In this document: in pieces, positions 3,131 through 11,214 of the stretch
Position numbering within the stretch: position 1 is the first letter of the stretch
Layout of the letters: every line of letters begins with the position of its first letter
NCBI GenBank assembly: GCA_003476465.1
Contig: DMUE01000029.1
Coordinates: 4,771 to 15,984, forward strand
Source of the DNA: Microbacterium sp.
Lineage (GTDB): Bacteria > Actinomycetota > Actinomycetes > Actinomycetales > Microbacteriaceae
Reading direction: 5' to 3'
Length of the DNA stretch: 11,214 nucleotides
Notes under the pieces: model-generated
Seen by the model: the letters and a program-made list of their open reading frames with translations, nothing else
Databases searched by the model: none
What the model was told of the DNA's origin: nothing
Made by a program: the position numbers and the translations under genes

Positions 3131-3146
3131 GTGTGAGTCTGTAACA
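3131..3146. repeat. Direct repeat 1, candidate operator half
   Basis: GTGTGAGTCTGTAACA is the first copy of a 16-base direct repeat lying about 90 bases upstream of the first transporter gene. It matches the second copy in 14 of 16 positions, and the two starts are 33 bases apart, close to three helical turns. I saw no further copies in the window. Confidence 0.6.
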
Positions 3147-3163: not shown

Positions 3164-3179
3164 GTGTGAATATGTAACA
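3164..3179. repeat. Direct repeat 2, candidate operator half
   Basis: GTGTGAATATGTAACA is the second copy of the repeat at 3131-3146 and differs from it only at its 7th and 9th bases. It ends 57 bases before the ATG at 3237. The next base (C3180) completes an ACAC end complementary to the leading GTGT. Confidence 0.6.
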
Positions 3180-3236: not shown

Positions 3237-4370
3237 ATGCAGCAGGACGCGATCGAGAGGGCGATCCGCCGCGTCGGCATGCCGGTGCTCGCGATCGTCG
3301 CCGCGCTCGTCGTGGGAGCGATTCTCGTCGCCACGCTTGGCCAGTCTCCGATCGCCGCCGCCTCTACGGTCATTCAGGCCGGGTTCAGCTGCACGCCCGG
3401 CTACTGCAACCTCGGCGGCACGCTCGCGCTGGCCTCGCCCATCATCTTCACCGCGCTCGGGGCGGTCGTGTCGCTGCGCACCGGCCTGTTCAGCATCGGC
3501 CAGGAGGGCCAGTACGCGCTTGGCGGCCTCGCAGGCGCGGTCGCGGGTTACTCGATCGCTGCCCCGGCGGGGGTCGCGCCCGTCATCGCCCTCGCCGCGT
3601 CCGCGGCGATGGGCGCGGCGTGGGGGATCATCCCCGCGCTGCTCAAGGTCTTCCTCGGCGTCAACGAGCTGATCATCACGATCGTTCTCAACGCCATCGC
3701 CGGGCTGCTGCTGGACTTCCTGGTCAACTACCCGCTCCGTGCCGAGGCATCGACGGTGGGGTACACACCCGTCGTCAACGAGGAGGCGCAGCTGCCGGTC
3801 TTCGACGTCTCGACCAAGTTCGGCCTCGCGTTCGTGCTGGCGATCGTCGCCGTGATCCTCGTCTCGTTCTTCCTCAACCGCACGACGGCAGGCTACGAGC
3901 AGCGCATGTCGGGGGAGGCGCCCCTGTTCGCACGCTACTCGGGCATGTCGAGCACGGCGAGCGTGCTGCGTGCGGGTCTGCTCGGCGGCGCCCTCGCGGG
4001 TCTCGGCGGGGGAGTACAGGTGCTCGGCACCAACTATCGCGTCATGGAGGGCTTCTCCGATGGAACGGGCTTCACCGGGCTCACCGCCGCGATCCTCGGC
4101 GGCACGACCGCCATCGGAGCGGGCCTGCTGGGCATCCTCTACGCCGGCATCACGGTGGGCGCCGTCAACGGCCTGCAGATCGTGCTCGGCGTGCCGCGCG
4201 AAATCGGCTCGACCGTACTCGCGCTGATGATCGTCTTCATCGCCGCCCAGGCGCCCCTGCTCACCCGGTGGGAACGCTGGCTCGACCGCCGTCGGGCGAA
4301 CAAGCTCATCGAGACCGGAGCGGGCGTGGCGCCTCCGCCCGGCCGCGGCACGGGGAGCGCCGCCGCATGA
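3237..4370 (+). CDS. BMP-type ABC importer, permease subunit 1
   Basis: The 377-residue protein is an integral membrane permease of the BPD_transp_2 family, the type that pairs with BMP lipoproteins in nucleoside and related importers (compare YufP/NupB). It starts with a cytoplasmic stretch and a helix at about 16-35. It then carries the family segment SLRTGLFSIGQEGQYALGG, the usual FNIGxEGQ motif with Ser in place of Asn. A string of hydrophobic helices runs to about residue 340, followed by a basic, then Gly/Ala/Pro-rich tail. C52 and C57 sit in the first presumed outside loop. The ATG at 3237 has AGGAG at 3227-3231 five bases upstream. It is the first gene of the operon, and its stop overlaps the next start as ATGA. 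Substrate is unknown; a nucleoside-like compound is the family-based guess. Confidence 0.88.
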   Translation: MQQDAIERAIRRVGMPVLAIVAALVVGAILVATLGQSPIAAASTVIQAGFSCTPGYCNLGGTLALASPIIFTALGAVVSLRTGLFSIGQEGQYALGGLAGAVAGYSIAAPAGVAPVIALAASAAMGAAWGIIPALLKVFLGVNELIITIVLNAIAGLLLDFLVNYPLRAEASTVGYTPVVNEEAQLPVFDVSTKFGLAFVLAIVAVILVSFFLNRTTAGYEQRMSGEAPLFARYSGMSSTASVLRAGLLGGALAGLGGGVQVLGTNYRVMEGFSDGTGFTGLTAAILGGTTAIGAGLLGILYAGITVGAVNGLQIVLGVPREIGSTVLALMIVFIAAQAPLLTRWERWLDRRRANKLIETGAGVAPPPGRGTGSAAA

Positions 4371-5404
4371 GCACCCTCGTCGATTTCCTCAACAGCGGCA
4401 TCAGGCTGACCGTTCCCATCCTGTTGGCCGCCATCGCCTCCATGCTCAGCGCTCGAGTGGGCGTGCTCAACCTCGCGATCGAGTCCATGGTCCTCTCCGG
4501 CGCCTTCGTCGGCATCCTCGCGGCTTCGGCGACGGGCAACAACCTCATCGGGGTGCTCGCGGCCGCGGCCACGGGCGCCACGATCGGCGCGATCATGGCC
4601 GTCGCCAATCGCGTCGGTGTCGACCTCGTGGTGCTCGCCATCGGGCTCAACATCCTGGTGCTGCAACTCACGGTGTTCCTGATGCGCTCCTACTTCGGGG
4701 GCGTCGGCACGTATGCGCCGGGCATCGAGCGGATCCCGCCGATCACGATCCCCTTCCTCTCCGACCTGCCCTTCCTCGGGCCCCTGCTCGCCCGCCTCAA
4801 CTGGCTGGTCTACCTTTCGATTCTCGTGGCGGTCCTCGTCGCGGTGTACTTCCGCACCCGCAGCGGCCGCCACCTGCTCGCCGTGGGCGAGGCCCCGGGA
4901 GCCGCCGCGTCCGCGGGCCTGTCGATCGCCCGCTACCAGACCCTCACGCTTCTGGCTGCGGGCGCCCTCGCCGGAATCGGGGGAGCGTACCTCTCGGTGG
5001 GCGACCTCGGCCTCTTTACCCGCAACATGAGCGGCGATCGCGGCTGGATCGGCATCACCGCGGCGCTGCTCGCCCTCAACAGGCCCGCTTTCATCGTGCC
5101 CGCGGCCGCCGTGTTCGGTTTCGCCAGCGCCGCATCGATCCGCCTGCAGGCGTTCGATGTGCCCGGCAGCGTCACGCAGTTCATCCCCCAGGGCGCCGCG
5201 TTCGTGGCACTCGTGCTCGTCGGCCTGCGCGCTAAGTCCCGCACCTCCTTCGCCCGGCTGTGGCGCAGCAGCAGCCGCATCCCGCTCCGGTGGCTGCGTC
5301 AGCACCCGTCTCCCAACCCCACCCCCGCGGCCGAGAACCCGCACACCCCCGCCACCAGACCGCACCACCCGCTCCACCACAGAAGTGATTCCCAATCCCT
5401 CTAA
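4367..5404 (+). CDS. BMP-type ABC importer, permease subunit 2
   Basis: This 345-residue second permease resembles YufQ/NupC-type proteins. Near the N-terminus it has PILLAAIASMLSARVGVLNL followed by AIESMVLSGAF, the equivalent of the family motif NLxxEGMML with Ser replacing Gly. Hydrophobic helices run to about residue 288. The start at 4367 is fixed by the ATGA overlap with permease 1; the same frame is open far upstream (from 3620), but that part lies inside permease 1 and is not expected to be coding. The last ~55 residues, from K290, are unlike the rest: first basic, then rich in Pro, His, Thr and Ser, with C-rich DNA at about 5300-5400. The TAA stop overlaps the ribosome-binding site of the lipoprotein gene. 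Confidence 0.88.
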   Translation: MSTLVDFLNSGIRLTVPILLAAIASMLSARVGVLNLAIESMVLSGAFVGILAASATGNNLIGVLAAAATGATIGAIMAVANRVGVDLVVLAIGLNILVLQLTVFLMRSYFGGVGTYAPGIERIPPITIPFLSDLPFLGPLLARLNWLVYLSILVAVLVAVYFRTRSGRHLLAVGEAPGAAASAGLSIARYQTLTLLAAGALAGIGGAYLSVGDLGLFTRNMSGDRGWIGITAALLALNRPAFIVPAAAVFGFASAASIRLQAFDVPGSVTQFIPQGAAFVALVLVGLRAKSRTSFARLWRSSSRIPLRWLRQHPSPNPTPAAENPHTPATRPHHPLHHRSDSQSL

Positions 5405-5408
5405 GGAG
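5403..5408 (+). promoter_or_regulatory. Strong ribosome-binding site for the substrate-binding lipoprotein
   Basis: AAGGAG lies four bases before the ATG at 5413 and shares its first two bases with the TAA stop of permease 2. It is among the closest matches to consensus in the window, which fits the higher dosage that binding proteins usually need relative to the permeases. Confidence 0.7.
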
Positions 5409-5412
5409 ACTC

Positions 5413-6513
5413 ATGTCACGGCACACTGGCGCACGACGCCGCTTCTCATTCCCTCTCGTCGCGCTCGCGGCGACCTTCCTGCTGGCAAGCTGCGCGGGCG
5501 GCGGCTCGGAAGCCACCGCAGAGGCGCCCGACGACGCATTCACCTATGCGCTCATCACCCCCGGTGCGGCAGGTGACGGCGGTTACATCGACTCCGCCAT
5601 CGCGGGCGCCGAGCTCGCTCAGGAGGAGCTCGGTGTCTCTGGCCGCCTCGTCGAGGCAGAGTCCGTCTCCCAGCAGGAGGGCGTGATCCGCTCGACCGTC
5701 GCGACCCAGCCCGACATCATCCTCGCGCCCGGGCTCGAGCCCGACGCGCTGCTCGCGGTGGCCGAAGAGAACCCCGACCAGCTGTTCGGGGTGCCGAGCG
5801 ACATCTTCGCCGATGAGCTGCCCGACAACGTGCAGGCGTACGCCATCAACGTGCACGAGAGCAGCTTCCTCGGCGGCTACATCGCCGGCAGCATGACGCA
5901 GACGGGCAAGGTCGGCGCCGTGCTCGGTGTCGACGCCCCGGGCCTAAACCAGTTCTACTACGGCTACAAGCAGGGCGTTCTGGCGGCGTGCCCCGAGTGC
6001 ACGGTCACCCCGACGTACCTGAACGGCGAGTTCTCCGACCCCTCGGTCGGCCAGGAGGCAGCGCTCGCGCTGTACCAGGAGGGCAACGACATCGTCTACG
6101 CCGTCGCCGGACTCAGCGGCCAGGGTGTCTTCACCGCCGCCACGCAGGAGGGCAAGTACGCGATCGGCGTCGACTCGAACCAGGATGCCGACGCTCCCGG
6201 CTCTGTGATCGTCTCGGTCATGAAGCGCGTCGACATGACCACCTACAACCTCATCGAGGCTGCCCTGAACGGCGAGTTCGAGTCGGGCTTCGTGCAGGCC
6301 GGTCTGTCCGACGGCGTGACGGGGCTGTCGTGGGCTGACGGATCGACGGTGTTCGCCGACGAGGGGCCCGCCGAGCTGGCGGGAATGGTCGAGGCGCTGT
6401 CCGCTGAGGTCGAAGACCTGCGGACGCAGCTGATCGATGGCTCCATCGAGGTGTGCGACGCGCTTAACGACCCCTCGAGCGACATCTGCGCCGAGCTGGG
6501 CCTGGCCTCCTAG
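5413..6513 (+). CDS. BMP-family substrate-binding lipoprotein
   Basis: The 366-residue protein is the extracytoplasmic binding component of the importer. It has a basic N-terminus (RRR at 8-10), a hydrophobic signal segment (about 11-24) and the lipobox LASC with C27 as the predicted lipidation site, then a short Gly/Ser/Ala linker. The Bmp fold is indicated by YALITPGAAGDGGYIDSA (about 45-62), the segment around GKVGAVLGV (165-173) and IGVDSNQDADAPGSVIVSVM with KRVD after it (about 251-274), all typical of PnrA/BmpA-like nucleoside-binding proteins. Cysteine pairs occur at C193/C196 and C349/C359. It follows permease 2 by eight bases and precedes the ATPase. The ligand is probably a nucleoside or similar small polar compound by family; the sequence does not fix it. 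Confidence 0.92.
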   Translation: MSRHTGARRRFSFPLVALAATFLLASCAGGGSEATAEAPDDAFTYALITPGAAGDGGYIDSAIAGAELAQEELGVSGRLVEAESVSQQEGVIRSTVATQPDIILAPGLEPDALLAVAEENPDQLFGVPSDIFADELPDNVQAYAINVHESSFLGGYIAGSMTQTGKVGAVLGVDAPGLNQFYYGYKQGVLAACPECTVTPTYLNGEFSDPSVGQEAALALYQEGNDIVYAVAGLSGQGVFTAATQEGKYAIGVDSNQDADAPGSVIVSVMKRVDMTTYNLIEAALNGEFESGFVQAGLSDGVTGLSWADGSTVFADEGPAELAGMVEALSAEVEDLRTQLIDGSIEVCDALNDPSSDICAELGLAS

Positions 6514-6542
6514 GCATGCGGCAGCAGGGAACGGACGAACGC

Positions 6543-8126
6543 ATGAGAACTACCTGGGGCGAGACGCCCCGGCTCGAGCTGCGGGGGCTGCGCAAGTACT
6601 TCGCAGCCTCCGGCGTGCTCGCGGTCGCGGACGTCTCGCTCGAGGTGGCACCCGGTGAGGTTCTGGCCCTCATCGGCGAGAACGGCACCGGCAAGACGAC
6701 GCTGATGAACCTCCTGTTCGGTGTGCACTCCCTGGATGCCGGTGAGATCTTCATCGACGGAAAGCCGGTCGAGATCCGCGGCCAGCAGGACGCGATCCGC
6801 AATGGGATCGGCATGGTGCATCAGCACTTCGAGCTGGTGCCGTCGTTCACCGTGGCCCAGAACGTGCTCCTCGGGCGCGAGCCCCGGCGGGGCGGCTTCT
6901 TCGACAACGCCGCCGCCGAGGAGCGGGTCGCCGAGCTGGCTCAAGAGACCGGGTTCCACATCGACCCACGGCAGGTCGTGCGCGACCTGCCAGTCGGCGC
7001 GCAGCAGCGCGTCGAGATCCTCAAGTCGCTGGCCGCCGACGCCCGGCTGCTCATCCTCGATGAGCCGACCGCGGTGCTCACGCCGAGTGAGACCGACGAT
7101 CTGCTCGTGATGGTGCGCACGCTCGCCGCCTCGGGGCGTTCGGTGGTGTTCATCTCCCACAAGCTGCCCGAGGTGCAGGCCATCGCCGATCGCATCGTCG
7201 TGATGCGGCGCGGCGCGGTCGTGGGCGACCTTGCCCGGGGCGAGGCGACAGATGCCGAGCTCGCGCGCCTGATGGTGGGCCGCGACGTGCTGCTCACCGC
7301 ACTCCGCGCCTACAGCCTCCCGGGCGAGGTGCTGCTGAGCCTCTCGGGGGTGACGGCTCCGCCGAGCCAGGACGGCAGCACCGGCCTCAAGGGCGTCGGC
7401 CTCGAGCTCCGCGCCGGCGAGATCGTCGGTCTCGCCGGCGTCAGCGGCAACGGTCAGGACGAGCTCGTCGACGCAATCGCGGCGCTCTCTCCTGCAGAGA
7501 AGGGCAGCATCCGGCTCTCGGGCACCGAGATCTCGCGTCGCTCTCCAGCCGAGGTGCGCACCGCCGGGGTGGCCCACATCGCGGCCGATCGCATGCACGT
7601 GGGACTCAACCTGCTCGCGACCCTTGAAGAGAACGCCGTGAGCACGAGGTTTAAGGCCCCCCCGTTTTCGAAGTGGGGCATCATCCGCAAGGCGGAGCGA
7701 CGCGCGTTCGCCCAGCGGATCGTCGCCGACTACGAGGTGCGCGGGGGCGCGCCGGCCCGCGTGGTCGGCTCGCTCTCGGGCGGAAACCTGCAGAAGGTCG
7801 TGATCGGTCGCGAGCTCAGCGGCGAGCCGCGCGTGGTGCTGGCCAACCAGCCGACCAGAGGACTCGACGTTGGCAGCATCGAGTTCGTGCACTCCGCGCT
7901 GTCGGATGCCCGGGCCTCGGGCGCCGGCGTGCTGCTGGTGTCCGCCGAGCTCGAAGAGATCTTCGCGCTCTCCGACCGCATCGCCGTGATGTTCGACGGC
8001 GAGCTGATCGGCCCCTTCCCGCGCGCTGAACTCGACCGCGAGCGCCTCGGACGATTGATGACCGGCGGCGCGTCCGAGAACTCCGAACCCACGGCCGACG
8101 CGCCGGATCCGAAGGAGAACCGATGA
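6543..8126 (+). CDS. BMP-type ABC importer, double-domain ATPase
   Basis: The 527-residue protein has two fused nucleotide-binding domains, like YufO/NupA, and powers the importer from the cytoplasmic face. Domain 1 has Walker A GENGTGKT (45-52, K51), a Q-loop segment MVHQHFELVPSF, the signature LPVGAQQRVEI from L149 and Walker B ending D173-E174. Domain 2 has a degenerate P-loop (GVSGNGQDE, no Lys), the signature LSGGNLQKV from L411 and a Walker B in which Gln (Q436, in ANQPTRGLD) replaces the catalytic Glu. Such asymmetry is usual for this class, leaving one working hydrolysis site. The ATG at 6543 is preferred because AGGGA lies at 6526-6530. An in-frame ATG at 6516 is only two bases after the previous stop, lacks such a site, and would add nine residues. 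Confidence 0.93.
   Translation: MRTTWGETPRLELRGLRKYFAASGVLAVADVSLEVAPGEVLALIGENGTGKTTLMNLLFGVHSLDAGEIFIDGKPVEIRGQQDAIRNGIGMVHQHFELVPSFTVAQNVLLGREPRRGGFFDNAAAEERVAELAQETGFHIDPRQVVRDLPVGAQQRVEILKSLAADARLLILDEPTAVLTPSETDDLLVMVRTLAASGRSVVFISHKLPEVQAIADRIVVMRRGAVVGDLARGEATDAELARLMVGRDVLLTALRAYSLPGEVLLSLSGVTAPPSQDGSTGLKGVGLELRAGEIVGLAGVSGNGQDELVDAIAALSPAEKGSIRLSGTEISRRSPAEVRTAGVAHIAADRMHVGLNLLATLEENAVSTRFKAPPFSKWGIIRKAERRAFAQRIVADYEVRGGAPARVVGSLSGGNLQKVVIGRELSGEPRVVLANQPTRGLDVGSIEFVHSALSDARASGAGVLLVSAELEEIFALSDRIAVMFDGELIGPFPRAELDRERLGRLMTGGASENSEPTADAPDPKENR
8112..8117 (+). promoter_or_regulatory. Ribosome-binding site of the amidohydrolase
   Basis: AAGGAG lies five bases before the ATG at 8123. 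That ATG overlaps the ATPase stop as ATGA, so this site fixes the enzyme's start and couples it to the transporter. Confidence 0.65.
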
Positions 8127-9448
8127 CCGAGATCATCGTCGCCGACCACATCTGGACGGGCGATCCGGCGCAGCCGCTGCTGTCACCCGGGGCGATCGAG
8201 GTCGACGGCGGCGTGATCGTCTCGATCAGCGCCGTGACCGGCGCGAGGCCCGCGGGAGCGAACGTGACCGACCTTCGGGCCAGCGTCGTGCTTCCCGGCC
8301 TCGTCAACGCGCACGCGCACACGCCGATGTCGATCATGCGCGGCATCGCCGAGGGCGTCTCGCTGCTCACAATGGAGGGGTTCCTGCAGACCCTGCGCGG
8401 CCATGAGGAGTTCCTCACCCCCGAACTCGTCCCCGCGGCGGTCGACGTGTCGCTGGCCGACATGATCCGGCACGGTACCACCATGTTCGCCGATCAGTAC
8501 TTCTACGCCGACGAGATCCTGCCGGGTGTCCTGCGCTCGGGCATGCGCGCCCGCATCGCGTGGGGCATCGTCGAGCTCGGCGACGACGAGGCCCGCGCCC
8601 GTGAACTCGCGGCGGCGACCGCGTTCGCCGAGTCCGTGCCGGACGGGTCGCTCGTGCAGGGCTGGGTCGGCCCGCACGCGTTCTTCGTCGACAACCAGCC
8701 CGAGGCCATCCGCGCCGAGGTGGAGCTCGCGACGCGGCTCGGCATCGGCCTGCATGCGCACTTCTCCACCTCGGGCGAGGAGGACGCCTTCTGCCACGCG
8801 GAGTACGGCCGCCCCGCCCTCGAGGTGATGAAGGAGCTGGGTCTGCTCGACCTGCCGCTGATCCTCGCGCACGGCAACACCGTGCCGGTCGCGCAGCTGC
8901 CCCTCCTCGCCGGCACCCGGGCGGCGATGGCCGTGATCCCGTCGGTCGCGATGATGAGCGGGGCTCCGGAGGCGCCCGTGCGCGAGGCCCTCGACGCCGG
9001 CGTCACCGTCGCGATCGGCTCCGACAACGTCTGCAACAACACCAACGCCGACCTGTTCGAAGAGATGCGCGTCCTCGGCAAGCTGGCGGCGTTCTCGAGC
9101 CGCACGCCGAATCAGGTCACCTCGCGCGAGATCCTCGAGATCGCCACCGTGAACGGTCACCGGGCCCTCGCGGGCGGTCCCGATGACGGCCGTCTCATGG
9201 CGGGTGCGGTCGCGGACCTCATCGCCGTGCCCGTGCACGAGGTGCGGCGCGGGCCCGTCGGCGCGCAGTCGCTGGAGTCGGCGCTGGTGTACTGCACCTC
9301 TGGAGCCTCGGTCAGCCACACAATGGTCGGTGGATCATGGCTGATGTCGGAGGGCATCGTCCGCACGGTCGATGACGAGCGCGCGGGGGCGCAGCTGCAG
9401 ACCGACTTCAACACGTTGATCGGCCGCAAAGTCGCGGCGGGAAAGTAG
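8123..9448 (+). CDS. Amidohydrolase-superfamily enzyme (MtaD/SsnA/AtzA-like, divergent)
   Basis: The 441-residue cytoplasmic enzyme has the layout of metal-dependent deaminases and hydrolases such as methylthioadenosine/S-adenosylhomocysteine deaminase, SsnA and the triazine hydrolases. An N-terminal beta-sandwich segment leads to VLPGLVNAHAHTPM with metal ligands H64 and H66. Further expected ligands are H213 (in LHAHFST), H250 (in ILAHGNTV) and D301 (in AIGSDNVCNNTNADLFEEMR). Compared with family members, the Glu three residues after the third His is missing (H213-F-S-T), and the NPxSN-type segment reads IPSVAM. The substrate class is therefore uncertain: a nucleoside or nucleobase-like amine is plausible from the importer, but a different hydrolysis is equally possible. 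The gene is coupled to the ATPase by ATGA and followed ten bases later by the regulator. Confidence 0.87.
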   Translation: MTEIIVADHIWTGDPAQPLLSPGAIEVDGGVIVSISAVTGARPAGANVTDLRASVVLPGLVNAHAHTPMSIMRGIAEGVSLLTMEGFLQTLRGHEEFLTPELVPAAVDVSLADMIRHGTTMFADQYFYADEILPGVLRSGMRARIAWGIVELGDDEARARELAAATAFAESVPDGSLVQGWVGPHAFFVDNQPEAIRAEVELATRLGIGLHAHFSTSGEEDAFCHAEYGRPALEVMKELGLLDLPLILAHGNTVPVAQLPLLAGTRAAMAVIPSVAMMSGAPEAPVREALDAGVTVAIGSDNVCNNTNADLFEEMRVLGKLAAFSSRTPNQVTSREILEIATVNGHRALAGGPDDGRLMAGAVADLIAVPVHEVRRGPVGAQSLESALVYCTSGASVSHTMVGGSWLMSEGIVRTVDDERAGAQLQTDFNTLIGRKVAAGK

Positions 9449-9458
9449 GGCACACGAC

Positions 9459-10277
9459 ATGGACGTCATCAAGCGCCGCACCCTCATCGAAGAAGAGGTC
9501 ATCCGCGCGGGAGAGGTGTCGTTCGTCGCCCTCGCCGAGAGGTTCGACGTCTCCGAGATGACGATCCGCCGTGACATCGAGGCTCTTCAGGCCACGGGCG
9601 TCGTGCGCAGGGTGTCAGGAGGGGCGATCGCGCTGTCGGGAACGGCGTTCGAGCCCTCGTACGGTCTCCGCGCGGGGCGGGCCGCCGACAGCAAGGCGCA
9701 GATCGGCCAGCGGATCGCCGCGCTGCTGCACCCGGGGGAAACGGTCGTGCTCGACAGCGGCAGCACGGTGCTCGCGGTCGCGCAGGCGATCCGCGGTCTG
9801 AACTTGGGCCTGACGGTGATCACCCCGAGCATCGGGGTTGCCACGACGCTCGCGGATGAGCCCGGTACGCAGGTCCTTCTCACGGGCGGCGTCGTCCGGC
9901 CAGGTGAGCTGAGCCTTATCGGCAGCGATGCCGAGCTGATGATGGCGCGCTACAACTGCGACACCTATGTTGCCGGCGTCGCGGGTGTCGACGCAGAGCG
10001 GGGACTCACCGAGTACCATCCGCAGGAGGCGAGCGTGAAGGAGGCGGCCGTCCGTGCCTCGCGCCGGGTGATCGTGGGCGCTGATGAGGAGAAGCTCGGG
10101 CGGGTGCACCTCGTCAACGTCGCGCCCCTGCATGCTGTCGCGGCGCTGGTCACCGATGCTCCGTCCACCCATCCCATCCTCGAAGCCGCGGCCGCCCGCG
10201 GCGTTGCGGTCTACACCATCGCTCTTGCAGCGGGCGCCGATATTTCCATCCAGAAACTCGCAGGAGACAGCGTATGA
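9459..10277 (+). CDS. DeoR-family transcriptional regulator
   Basis: The 272-residue protein has the two-part DeoR/GlpR layout. An N-terminal winged helix-turn-helix (about 5-57) includes VALAERFDVSEMTIRRDIEAL and ends in VVRRVSGGAI. A C-terminal sugar-phosphate sensing domain has LDSGSTVLAVA (D99-S102 in the phosphate-binding turn), TGGVVRPGELSLIG and GVAGVDAERGLTEY. Where many family members have a DHSKFG-type motif, this one reads GADEEKLGR. Proteins of this family usually repress catabolic operons and release DNA when they bind a phosphorylated sugar or sugar-like intermediate, which fits the kinase two genes downstream. It lies inside the operon, so autoregulation is likely. The repeats at 3131-3179 are the candidate target. 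The ribosome-binding site is weak (TAGGG, eight bases upstream). Confidence 0.92.
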   Translation: MDVIKRRTLIEEEVIRAGEVSFVALAERFDVSEMTIRRDIEALQATGVVRRVSGGAIALSGTAFEPSYGLRAGRAADSKAQIGQRIAALLHPGETVVLDSGSTVLAVAQAIRGLNLGLTVITPSIGVATTLADEPGTQVLLTGGVVRPGELSLIGSDAELMMARYNCDTYVAGVAGVDAERGLTEYHPQEASVKEAAVRASRRVIVGADEEKLGRVHLVNVAPLHAVAALVTDAPSTHPILEAAAARGVAVYTIALAAGADISIQKLAGDSV

Positions 10278-11074
10278 CCCGCTTCGCATGTATTTTTCCC
10301 GGCATCGACAAGCCCCTGATCGCGATGGCTCATGTGCCGGCGCTGCCGGGAACCCCCCTGTACGACCCGGGGGCCGGTGTCTCGGGACTCGTCGACCACG
10401 TGCGCCGCGACGTCGATATGCTGGTCGACGCGGGCTTCGATGCCGTGATGTTCTGCAACGAGAACGACCGACCGTACCAGTTGAAGGCCGGCCCCGAAGC
10501 GGCGGCCGTGATGTCGCGCGTGGTCACTGAATGCCGCCCGGCATCCATTCCGTTCGGTGTCGACTTCCTCTGGGACCCGAGTATCGCGCTCGCTACCGCT
10601 GTGGCGACGGGCGCGAGCTTTCTGCGCGAGGTCGTGACCGGCGTCTGGGAGTCGGACATGGGGCTCTGGAACACCGATGCCGCGACCACGCTGCGTGAGC
10701 GCCGCCGCCTCGACGGTGACGACATCGCGGTCCTGATGAACGTCTCGCCCGAGTTCGCTTCGCCGATCGGCACCCGCAGCGTGGCGCAGACGGCGAGCAG
10801 CGCCGTCGTGTCGAGTCTCGCCGACGCGATCCTCGTGTCGGGCCCGATGGCGGGCGCGGGGCCCGAGATGTCGCTCCTGCGTGAGGTGCGGGGTTCTGTG
10901 CCCCCTGACATCCCGGTTATCCTCAACACGGGAGCCCAGGCTGAGACGATCGCGTCGATGCTCGAGGTCGCCGACGGCTGCATCGTCGGCTCATCCCTGA
11001 AGGTCGACGGCTACACCTGGAACGCCGTCGACCCCGACCGGGCCCGTCGATTCGTCGAGGCGGCCAAGGGCTAG
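10274..11074 (+). CDS. BtpA-family TIM-barrel protein, SgcQ-like
   Basis: The 266-residue protein matches the BtpA family and looks closest to the E. coli SgcQ branch. Seen in order are MAHVPALPGTPLYD (18-31, the HxPxLPGSP signature), a FCNENDRPY segment (60-68), GVDFLWDP (95-102), ASFLREVVTGV (114-124), a VSGPMAGAG loop (188-196), ILNTGAQAETI (216-226) and GCIVGSSLKVDG (235-246). The last two resemble the phosphate-gripping loops of TIM barrels acting on phosphorylated substrates. The family is named after a cyanobacterial photosystem I assembly factor, but that role makes no sense here; the biochemical activity of SgcQ-type members is, to my knowledge, not established. The start at 10274 overlaps the regulator stop (ATGA) and has AGGAGA six bases upstream. 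An enzyme of the pathway is the best guess. Confidence 0.85.
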   Translation: MTRFACIFPGIDKPLIAMAHVPALPGTPLYDPGAGVSGLVDHVRRDVDMLVDAGFDAVMFCNENDRPYQLKAGPEAAAVMSRVVTECRPASIPFGVDFLWDPSIALATAVATGASFLREVVTGVWESDMGLWNTDAATTLRERRRLDGDDIAVLMNVSPEFASPIGTRSVAQTASSAVVSSLADAILVSGPMAGAGPEMSLLREVRGSVPPDIPVILNTGAQAETIASMLEVADGCIVGSSLKVDGYTWNAVDPDRARRFVEAAKG

Positions 11075-11092
11075 AGCGGAGCTGTGGCCTCG

Positions 11093-11214
11093 ATGAGTGC
11101 GATCACCATCGGCCTCGACATCGGCACGACGGGAGTCAAGGGCGTCGCCCTCGAGATCGACCGCGGGCTGCTCGCCCAGGCCTCGCGCGCCAACCGGCTG
11201 GCCTCGGCGCAGCC
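11093..11214 (+). CDS. FGGY/ASKHA-type carbohydrate kinase, N-terminal fragment
   Basis: Only the first 40 residues are in the window; the frame is open to the right edge. They contain ITIGLDIGTTGVKGVALEID, the phosphate-1 loop of the FGGY kinase family (xylulokinase, gluconokinase and relatives), with D9 and the GTTGVKG turn in the expected positions. The ATG at 11093 is preferred because GGAG lies at 11078-11081; an in-frame GTG at 11084 is too close to it. The gene follows the BtpA-like gene by 18 bases and appears to be in the same operon. FGGY kinases phosphorylate sugars, polyols or related compounds using ATP; the substrate cannot be predicted from this fragment. Confidence 0.82.
   Translation, partial: MSAITIGLDIGTTGVKGVALEIDRGLLAQASRANRLASAQ

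Follow-up and report, generated by a model that had tools for sequence, protein, structure and literature searches.

A conserved eight-gene operon with a BtpA-family protein in Microbacterium, a candidate for catabolism of a nucleoside-type compound

Introduction

What is the role of an operon that joins a nucleoside-type importer to an amidohydrolase, a DeoR-type repressor, a BtpA/SgcQ-family protein and a sugar-type kinase? The question is raised by a stretch of 11,214 nucleotides from Microbacterium sp. (contig DMUE01000029.1, positions 4,771 to 15,984, forward strand), referred to here as the window. A sequence-only reading of the window had proposed that eight of its genes form an undescribed catabolic operon, and that the pathway runs from import through hydrolysis or deamination and phosphorylation to cleavage or rearrangement by the BtpA-like protein. 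Our analysis shows that the operon is real and conserved. Catabolism of a nucleoside-type compound is the best-supported interpretation, with predicted reactions for the amidohydrolase, the FGGY kinase and BtpA.

Results

Gene layout

The operon and the repeats in front of it consist of the following features.

3132..3146, + strand: operator-like repeat, copy 1 (TGTGAGTCTGTAACA); paired repeat in 11/11 operons
3165..3179, + strand: operator-like repeat, copy 2 (TGTGAATATGTAACA); paired repeat in 11/11 operons
3237..4370, + strand: ATP-binding cassette (ABC) importer permease 1; BPD_transp_2 PF02653, 123 bits
4367..5404, + strand: ABC importer permease 2; BPD_transp_2 PF02653, 89 bits
5413..6513, + strand: BMP/PnrA-type substrate-binding lipoprotein; Bmp PF02608, 157 bits; best solved relative 7x0r (Lbp), E 4e-38
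6516..8126, + strand: ABC importer ATPase with two ATP-binding domains; PF00005, two stretches
8123..9448, + strand: amidohydrolase of the TrzA/AtzB/S-adenosylhomocysteine (SAH) deaminase group, with HxHxxT for HxHxxE; Amidohydro_1 PF01979
9459..10277, + strand: DeoR-type repressor; HTH_DeoR PF08220 and DeoRC PF00455
10274..11074, + strand: BtpA/SgcQ-family TIM-barrel protein; PF03437, TIGR00259
11084..11214, + strand: FGGY-type kinase, 5' part, named by homology; start GTG 11084 or ATG 11093; cut by the window end

The list of open reading frames and the Pfam matches confirm the predicted run of eight genes on one strand: two permeases, the BMP lipoprotein, the ABC ATPase, the amidohydrolase, DeoR, BtpA and FGGY. 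Four-base ATGA overlaps occur at 4367, 8123 and 10274. The remaining intergenic gaps are 8, 2, 10 and 9 (or 18) bases, with a maximum of 18, within the 29 originally claimed.

The window is one piece, lying between two 2-N gaps, of a scaffold of 17,306 bases (L002). The gap at L002 15985-15986 coincides with the window end, and about 43 FGGY codons lie inside the window. The FGGY frame continues past the gap to L002:17248, 58 bases before the scaffold end, and its product has 61-68% identity to the FGGY proteins of the ten related loci described below. At 464 amino acids, versus about 490 in these ten relatives, the open frame is about 25 residues shorter, and sequence is therefore probably missing at the 2-N gap. 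An aldolase, isomerase or nucleosidase gene had been expected beyond 11214. This expectation is not supported: FGGY is the sole gene on the contig past that point, and each gene family that follows FGGY occurs in at most two of the ten loci (rough open reading frame families).

Conservation and distribution

BtpA relatives were sought in one genome per species. Of the 123 loci detected, the best 80 form the basis of all counts of BtpA loci. All eight genes occur in identical order at 10 of the 80 (L004-L012 and L017), nine of them in Microbacteriaceae and one in Brachybacterium. Close orthologues of the amidohydrolase, BtpA and the BMP lipoprotein (at least 70% identity) are found in the same 3 of 150 genomes of the family, adjoining each other in the window's own genome, G029 and G107. 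The genomes G029, G107, G440 and G405 are those of L010, L012, L005 and L007, and do not represent extra cases. Since the full set occurs in one order at 10/80 loci and the close orthologues co-occur side by side, the grouping is above chance. Pairwise divergences of the genes among the 11 copies correlate positively, with r from 0.28 (the minimum, for BtpA and BMP) to 0.84, with the caveat that L005 and L008 are near copies and the 11 are not all independent. Thus, the co-occurrence search that the sequence-only reading had suggested bears out its view of the eight genes as one co-inherited, catabolic-type unit.

The operon is rare. The amidohydrolase is present at E up to 1e-70 in 3 of 394 genomes of the class; in the same scan it is absent from 10 of the 11 same-genus genomes listed besides the window's own. 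G106, from the same genus, has no close orthologues of the amidohydrolase, BtpA or BMP at the 70% threshold. We infer from this patchy occurrence that the operon may be a horizontally moving unit. Its insertion site seems to vary between genomes, and in the window genome it follows housekeeping genes. By eye, genes resembling YbeY, a CBS-domain protein and the GTPase Era lie at 225-2969 of the window, and a tRNA-like sequence precedes the operon in L009.

Operator repeats and regulation

The DeoR protein has both the helix-turn-helix domain (PF08220, 52.5 bits) and the DeoRC sensor domain (PF00455, 148.3 bits). Two direct repeats with the consensus TGTGAATnTGTAACA are located upstream of 11/11 operons, 33 bases apart (34 in L011); copy 1 is degenerate in L005 and L008, with five mismatches. 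None of 200 shuffles of the window contains the paired repeat. Allowing at most one mismatch, TGTGAATnTGTAACA has 16 matches in ten whole genomes (that of L008 is not among them, and the window's own is 59% complete). Every match is at the operon, and the reversed-pattern control gave 0. Hence, as far as the pattern shows, the regulon is this operon alone. The repeat pair is a candidate private DeoR operator, and the operon is probably privately regulated.

A matrix built from the sites has a match of at least 14 upstream of 10 of the 44 DeoR genes at other loci, some of these ten, such as L028 and L031, being closely related to each other. Three further DeoR loci with insufficient upstream sequence were left out of the scan. 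Twenty column-permuted matrices gave a mean of 0.4 (maximum 2), and random stretches gave 2/220. A repressor and a site that are common to the operon and to part of the dehydrogenase-type loci described below would suggest a common effector.

The importer

The nucleoside-type importer of the sequence-only reading is supported, as a prediction from homology, by membership of the BMP family and by the relatives Lbp and BmpD. The Bmp domain scores 156.9 bits against a cut-off of 24.1, and the lipoprotein is homologous to the solved proteins 7x0r, 6shu and 2fqw, with Lbp (7x0r) the best solved relative. The paper on Lbp describes guanosine fitted into density and a similarity to PnrA (PMC9601137). 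For BmpD, the published work reports binding of adenosine and inosine, with no binding curve for ribose, guanosine or xanthosine, and places Asp19, Asn28 and Phe176 around the base (PMC7093131). Counted along the alignment, these three residues correspond to Pro50, Ile59 and Phe207 of the window protein. The loop signature of Pro50 and Ile59 is common to the 11 operons, L068, L113, L114 and L115; in L099 and L117, two close relatives, positions 50 and 59 are Asn and Phe. Position 207, that of the stacking Phe, is Phe or Tyr in all proteins compared. The Asp of GVDS and the Lys of MKRVD, which we take to be ribose contacts in the BMP family, are kept. Together, these residues suggest a nucleoside-type ligand with an unusual base.

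The putative B6 ABC transporter (NF047927-NF047930) was tried as another identity for the importer. All components are below the cut-offs: the permeases score 140.4 versus 400 and 163.7 versus 465, the lipoprotein 56.3 versus 400, and the ATPase 422.2 versus 670.

The amidohydrolase and release of the base

The metal ligands of the amidohydrolase (HxH, H, H, D: H64, H66, H213, H250 and D301) are invariant in 36/36 sequences and align with those of solved deaminases, although the printed alignment is shifted at H213 for 4dyk/4gbd. The structural model is closest to the nucleoside deaminases 4f0s/4f0r. At the catalytic Glu of HxHxxE, the window enzyme has Thr216, also invariant in 36/36, and HxHxxT is found in 120/120 among the matches listed. 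Glu is present opposite Thr216 in 4f0r, 3lnp, 4dzh and 4/4 distant amidohydrolases of the family. This replacement makes plain deamination, as envisaged by the sequence-only reading, doubtful. One source gives many proteins of the HxHxxT group the name methylthioadenosine (MTA)/SAH deaminase; with Glu replaced by Thr, the name needs an assay before it can be relied on. The MTA/SAH deaminase family and its relatives in NCBIfam reach at best 218.6 bits versus 609, and the enzyme is below the cut-off in all families among the matches listed (25 of 29).

Pairing of this importer type with this amidohydrolase group is wider than the operon. In L086-L092 and L094, a distant amidohydrolase (~30%) has a distant BMP gene at most 7 kb away, which is 8 of the 16 family genomes that have such an enzyme.

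How would the base be released? Inosine-uridine (IU) nucleoside hydrolase is present in at least one copy in 8/10 operon genomes, with none in the window's own genome (59% complete), and proteins of the purine nucleoside phosphorylase (PNP) family are present in 10/10. Since the operon encodes no nucleosidase and the IU hydrolase is not universal, base release, if it occurs, would be due to a PNP-type or other enzyme acting in trans, or to an enzyme of the operon. The universal PNP proteins raise the possibility of ordinary purine nucleoside salvage, in which import and deamination would be followed by phosphorolysis by the chromosomal PNP, and the pentose would be processed by FGGY and an isomerase or epimerase step of BtpA. 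The adenosine/MTA deaminase that is the best fold match of the amidohydrolase argues for this route, as do the distant amidohydrolases near BMP genes in half of the 16 family genomes. It is at odds with Thr in place of the catalytic Glu in 120/120 listed proteins and with the operator pattern, which is found at no PNP gene in ten genomes; moreover, the product of PNP is an aldose 1-phosphate, not the usual substrate of FGGY kinases. We consider purine salvage unlikely.

BtpA and the FGGY kinase

Membership of the BtpA/SgcQ family is clear (PF03437, 224.4 bits versus 30; TIGR00259, 216 versus 153.4). The photosystem I biogenesis protein BtpA (NF045918) was rejected as a more specific identity, at 137.2 bits versus 400. 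The family has matches in 5 of 14 control genomes, three of them above the cut-off. The five include E. coli and a cyanobacterium. The title of a cited paper links cyanobacterial BtpA to tetrapyrrole biosynthesis. We found no assigned enzymatic reaction for the family in the open-licence literature, and no solved member by sequence search.

A BtpA model based on 58 sequences, one from the window and 57 from the 80 loci, has a TIM-barrel fold and a pLDDT of 95. Its best structural matches are phosphate-binding barrels: 2-keto-3-deoxy-6-phosphogalactonate (KDPGal) aldolase, geranylgeranylglyceryl phosphate (GGGP) synthase, phosphoribosylanthranilate (PRA) isomerase, thiamin phosphate synthase, ribulose-phosphate epimerase (RPE) and MJ1099. 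The invariant residues H20, E63, D97, R118, N156 and E160, like the NTG and VG motifs, are placed within strands or directly after them, the usual place of catalytic and phosphate-binding residues. The BtpA profile has weak matches, mostly to the second half of tryptophan synthase alpha, which is the phosphate-site half (best E 0.003); this fits a predicted phosphate site and gives no reaction.

For the FGGY kinase, the intact orthologue of L011 has the FGGY kinase 3ifr as its best match. Xylulokinase XylB (TIGR01312) was rejected, the orthologue scoring 263.3 bits versus 380.25.

Two modules and their neighbourhoods

Which genes accompany BtpA elsewhere? Partners within 8 kb were counted in the 80 loci as BLAST best matches to single references, with Pfam names. 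The counts are also lower bounds, as many loci stop at contig ends, and the dehydrogenases need not be one and the same enzyme. DeoR is found at 62 loci, FGGY at 59, a short-chain dehydrogenase (SDR) at 44 and an SBP_bac_1-kind sugar-binding protein at 21, the last two together at 18. BMP is found at 11, the window-type amidohydrolase at 10, an inositol-monophosphatase-like protein at 6 and a nucleoside hydrolase at 1; nine loci have no tested partner. Dehydrogenases matching the L028 protein at E up to 1e-40 (40-44% identity) occur in 4/10 operon genomes.

The amidohydrolase subfamily has a different setting. Outside actinobacteria, a nucleoside hydrolase is nearby in 6/10 loci (BLAST), and a nucleoside hydrolase and/or a BMP-type importer in 8/10 (BLAST, with Pfam for two clusters). 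At L068 (Chloroflexi), an importer with related BMP (~55% identity) and ATPase (~50%) accompanies a nucleoside hydrolase, PfkB, BtpA and FGGY. At L074 (Thermotogae), a distant BMP importer (22% identity, below the score limit of the neighbour count) precedes DeoR-BtpA-FGGY-SDR.

In a BtpA tree of 81 rows made by a quick method, the 11 operon sequences fall inside a starred set of 23, with 10 others of the dehydrogenase type and 2 of other context. The operon type needs two label changes on this tree, because L018 and L024 (other context) fall beside L012; the tree is still compatible with a single origin. BtpA of L068 lies in a separate starred branch. Most simply, two or more separate events would have brought related importers together with BtpA-FGGY. 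The operon itself seems to combine two modules, DeoR-BtpA-FGGY and BMP importer plus amidohydrolase. The sequence-only reading had asked whether importer and enzymes might be independent units: they stay together in these 11 operons, but BtpA-FGGY and BMP-amidohydrolase also occur separately elsewhere.

The separate occurrence of both modules could mean two unrelated functions under one promoter, with the importer and amidohydrolase serving one compound and DeoR-BtpA-FGGY another. We regard this as very unlikely given the single gene order in 11/11 operons, the position of all genes behind one operator pair, and the association of related importers with BtpA-FGGY in two different parts of the BtpA tree, that of the window type and that of L068.

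In another explanation, the operon would serve a nitrogen compound resembling a sugar or polyol, and no nucleoside. The amidohydrolase would then replace the dehydrogenase of the more common operons and yield the same FGGY substrate by hydrolysis, and the specificity of the BMP protein would have changed. DeoR-BtpA-FGGY is common to loci with the dehydrogenase, the sugar-binding protein or both, and the operon BtpA sequences share their set of 23 with 10 dehydrogenase-type and 2 other sequences. The operator found at 10/44 other DeoR loci argues for a common effector, and the Pro and Ile aligned with Asp19 and Asn28 of BmpD would suit a changed specificity. This explanation is harder to reconcile with the retained GVDS Asp and MKRVD Lys (presumed ribose contacts), with the aromatic residue at the stacking Phe, and with the nucleoside hydrolase near the amidohydrolase subfamily in 6/10 other loci. 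On balance, we judge it rather unlikely.

In Ornithinicoccus (L024:6394-13746), a BtpA near the operon type has as neighbours an M42 peptidase, a Dak1-Dak2 kinase and a Peripla_BP_4 binding protein; this setting would suit a BtpA product of the dihydroxyacetone type. In Anaerolineae (L071:10796-12760), BtpA is followed by two proteins of the IF-2B family, presumably the family of some sugar-1-phosphate isomerases; an oligopeptide-type importer is also present. At L093:4693-9009, a distant BtpA (32%) lies beside an arginase-family protein, DeoR and an amino-acid permease.

Discussion

What would a nucleoside-type pathway look like? We propose that the compound taken up by the BMP-dependent ABC importer combines a ribose-like part with an unusual base. 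The amidohydrolase would hydrolyse the base moiety, probably through a modified SAH/adenosine deaminase reaction that works without the usual Glu. The FGGY kinase would phosphorylate the sugar or sugar-derived part, and BtpA, as a phosphate-binding-type TIM barrel, could cleave or rearrange the phosphosugar into central metabolism. DeoR would repress the operon from the two tandem sites 33 bases apart, which are identified by conservation, and a phosphorylated intermediate may release it. The neighbourhoods and the BtpA tree support an origin by addition of an importer-amidohydrolase module to DeoR-BtpA-FGGY, the older of the two modules. The order of import, hydrolysis, phosphorylation and BtpA action in the sequence-only reading fits the phosphate-binding-type fold of BtpA; its plain deamination does not survive well. 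Our preferred view, that the operon is self-contained and serves to catabolise a nucleoside-type compound by these steps, is tentative and has somewhat less than an even chance.

Several observations weigh against it. The DeoR-BtpA-FGGY module shows little nucleoside link outside the window-type operon: a nucleoside hydrolase lies within 8 kb at L068 only, against 44/80 loci with a dehydrogenase and 21/80 with a sugar-binding protein, and 34/44 other DeoR loci have no match to the operator matrix. Ketoses and polyols are the usual substrates of FGGY kinases. The catalytic Glu of the amidohydrolase is replaced by the invariant Thr216, and Asp19 and Asn28 of the base network of BmpD by Pro and Ile. 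The operon contains no nucleosidase or phosphorylase, and G440, estimated 100% complete in 30 contigs, carries the operon and no IU nucleoside hydrolase. Finally, work on the E. coli sgc genes reports mutants without a growth defect on the tested sources, the strains named there being deletions of sgcC and sgcX, not sgcQ (PMC13343008).

A more specific version of the nucleoside-type reading is a nucleosidase-free route for modified nucleosides. The Glu-less amidohydrolase would open or strip the base, FGGY would phosphorylate the N-glycoside or the sugar, and BtpA would be the final lyase or isomerase. This version is distinctly unlikely; if true, it would be the first enzymatic function for the widespread BtpA/SgcQ family. 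In this operon BtpA is accompanied by a single kinase, a single hydrolase, a single importer and a single candidate private operator, making its reaction directly testable.

Comparison with known systems

No published pathway with this gene set was found, which agrees with the earlier impression of an uncharacterised combination; the literature covered was open-licence only, and this is weak evidence of absence. The individual parts have clear relatives. As in PnrA/BMP importers (TmpC, BmpD and Lbp), a Bmp-domain lipoprotein is combined with two permeases and a double ATPase, and the GVDS Asp, the MKRVD Lys and an F or Y at the stacking Phe are kept. The window protein differs in having Pro/Ile for Asp19/Asn28 of BmpD, and its ligand class is a prediction. 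The amidohydrolase has the fold and the metal-ligand pattern HxH, H, H, D of the MTA/SAH (adenosine) deaminases 4f0r/4f0s and TM0936. In contrast to these enzymes, it has Thr for the HxHxxE Glu and GPHAFFVDN where 4f0r has PHAPY, and falls below all NCBIfam cut-offs among the matches listed.

The DeoR-BtpA-FGGY-SDR loci of Actinobacteria, Chloroflexi and others have a homologous regulator, BtpA and kinase, and the operator motif at 10/44. Where the window-type operon has the BMP importer and amidohydrolase, these loci carry a short-chain dehydrogenase and, in part, a sugar ABC importer.

The E. coli operon sgcABCEQX, whose SgcQ is the namesake of the family, likewise has a BtpA-family protein, a DeoR-type regulator (SgcR) and sugar-type uptake. 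It differs in its phosphotransferase system (PTS) uptake and its epimerase-like and zinc-hydrolase-like proteins, and it has no BMP importer, amidohydrolase or FGGY kinase. Conversely, no PTS components, SgcE or SgcX were found among the seven Pfam-searched genes of the operon and FGGY, so these eight genes do not form an Sgc operon. The sgcABCEQX module is reported to be induced 16-25-fold on a group of nitrogen-containing substrates and to rise with hypoxanthine in starvation; its substrate is not known, and the authors suggest unusual carbohydrate or pentitol chemistry (PMC13343008). Set beside these systems, the window holds a new operon assembled from known modules, and a catabolic operon as such is a known kind.

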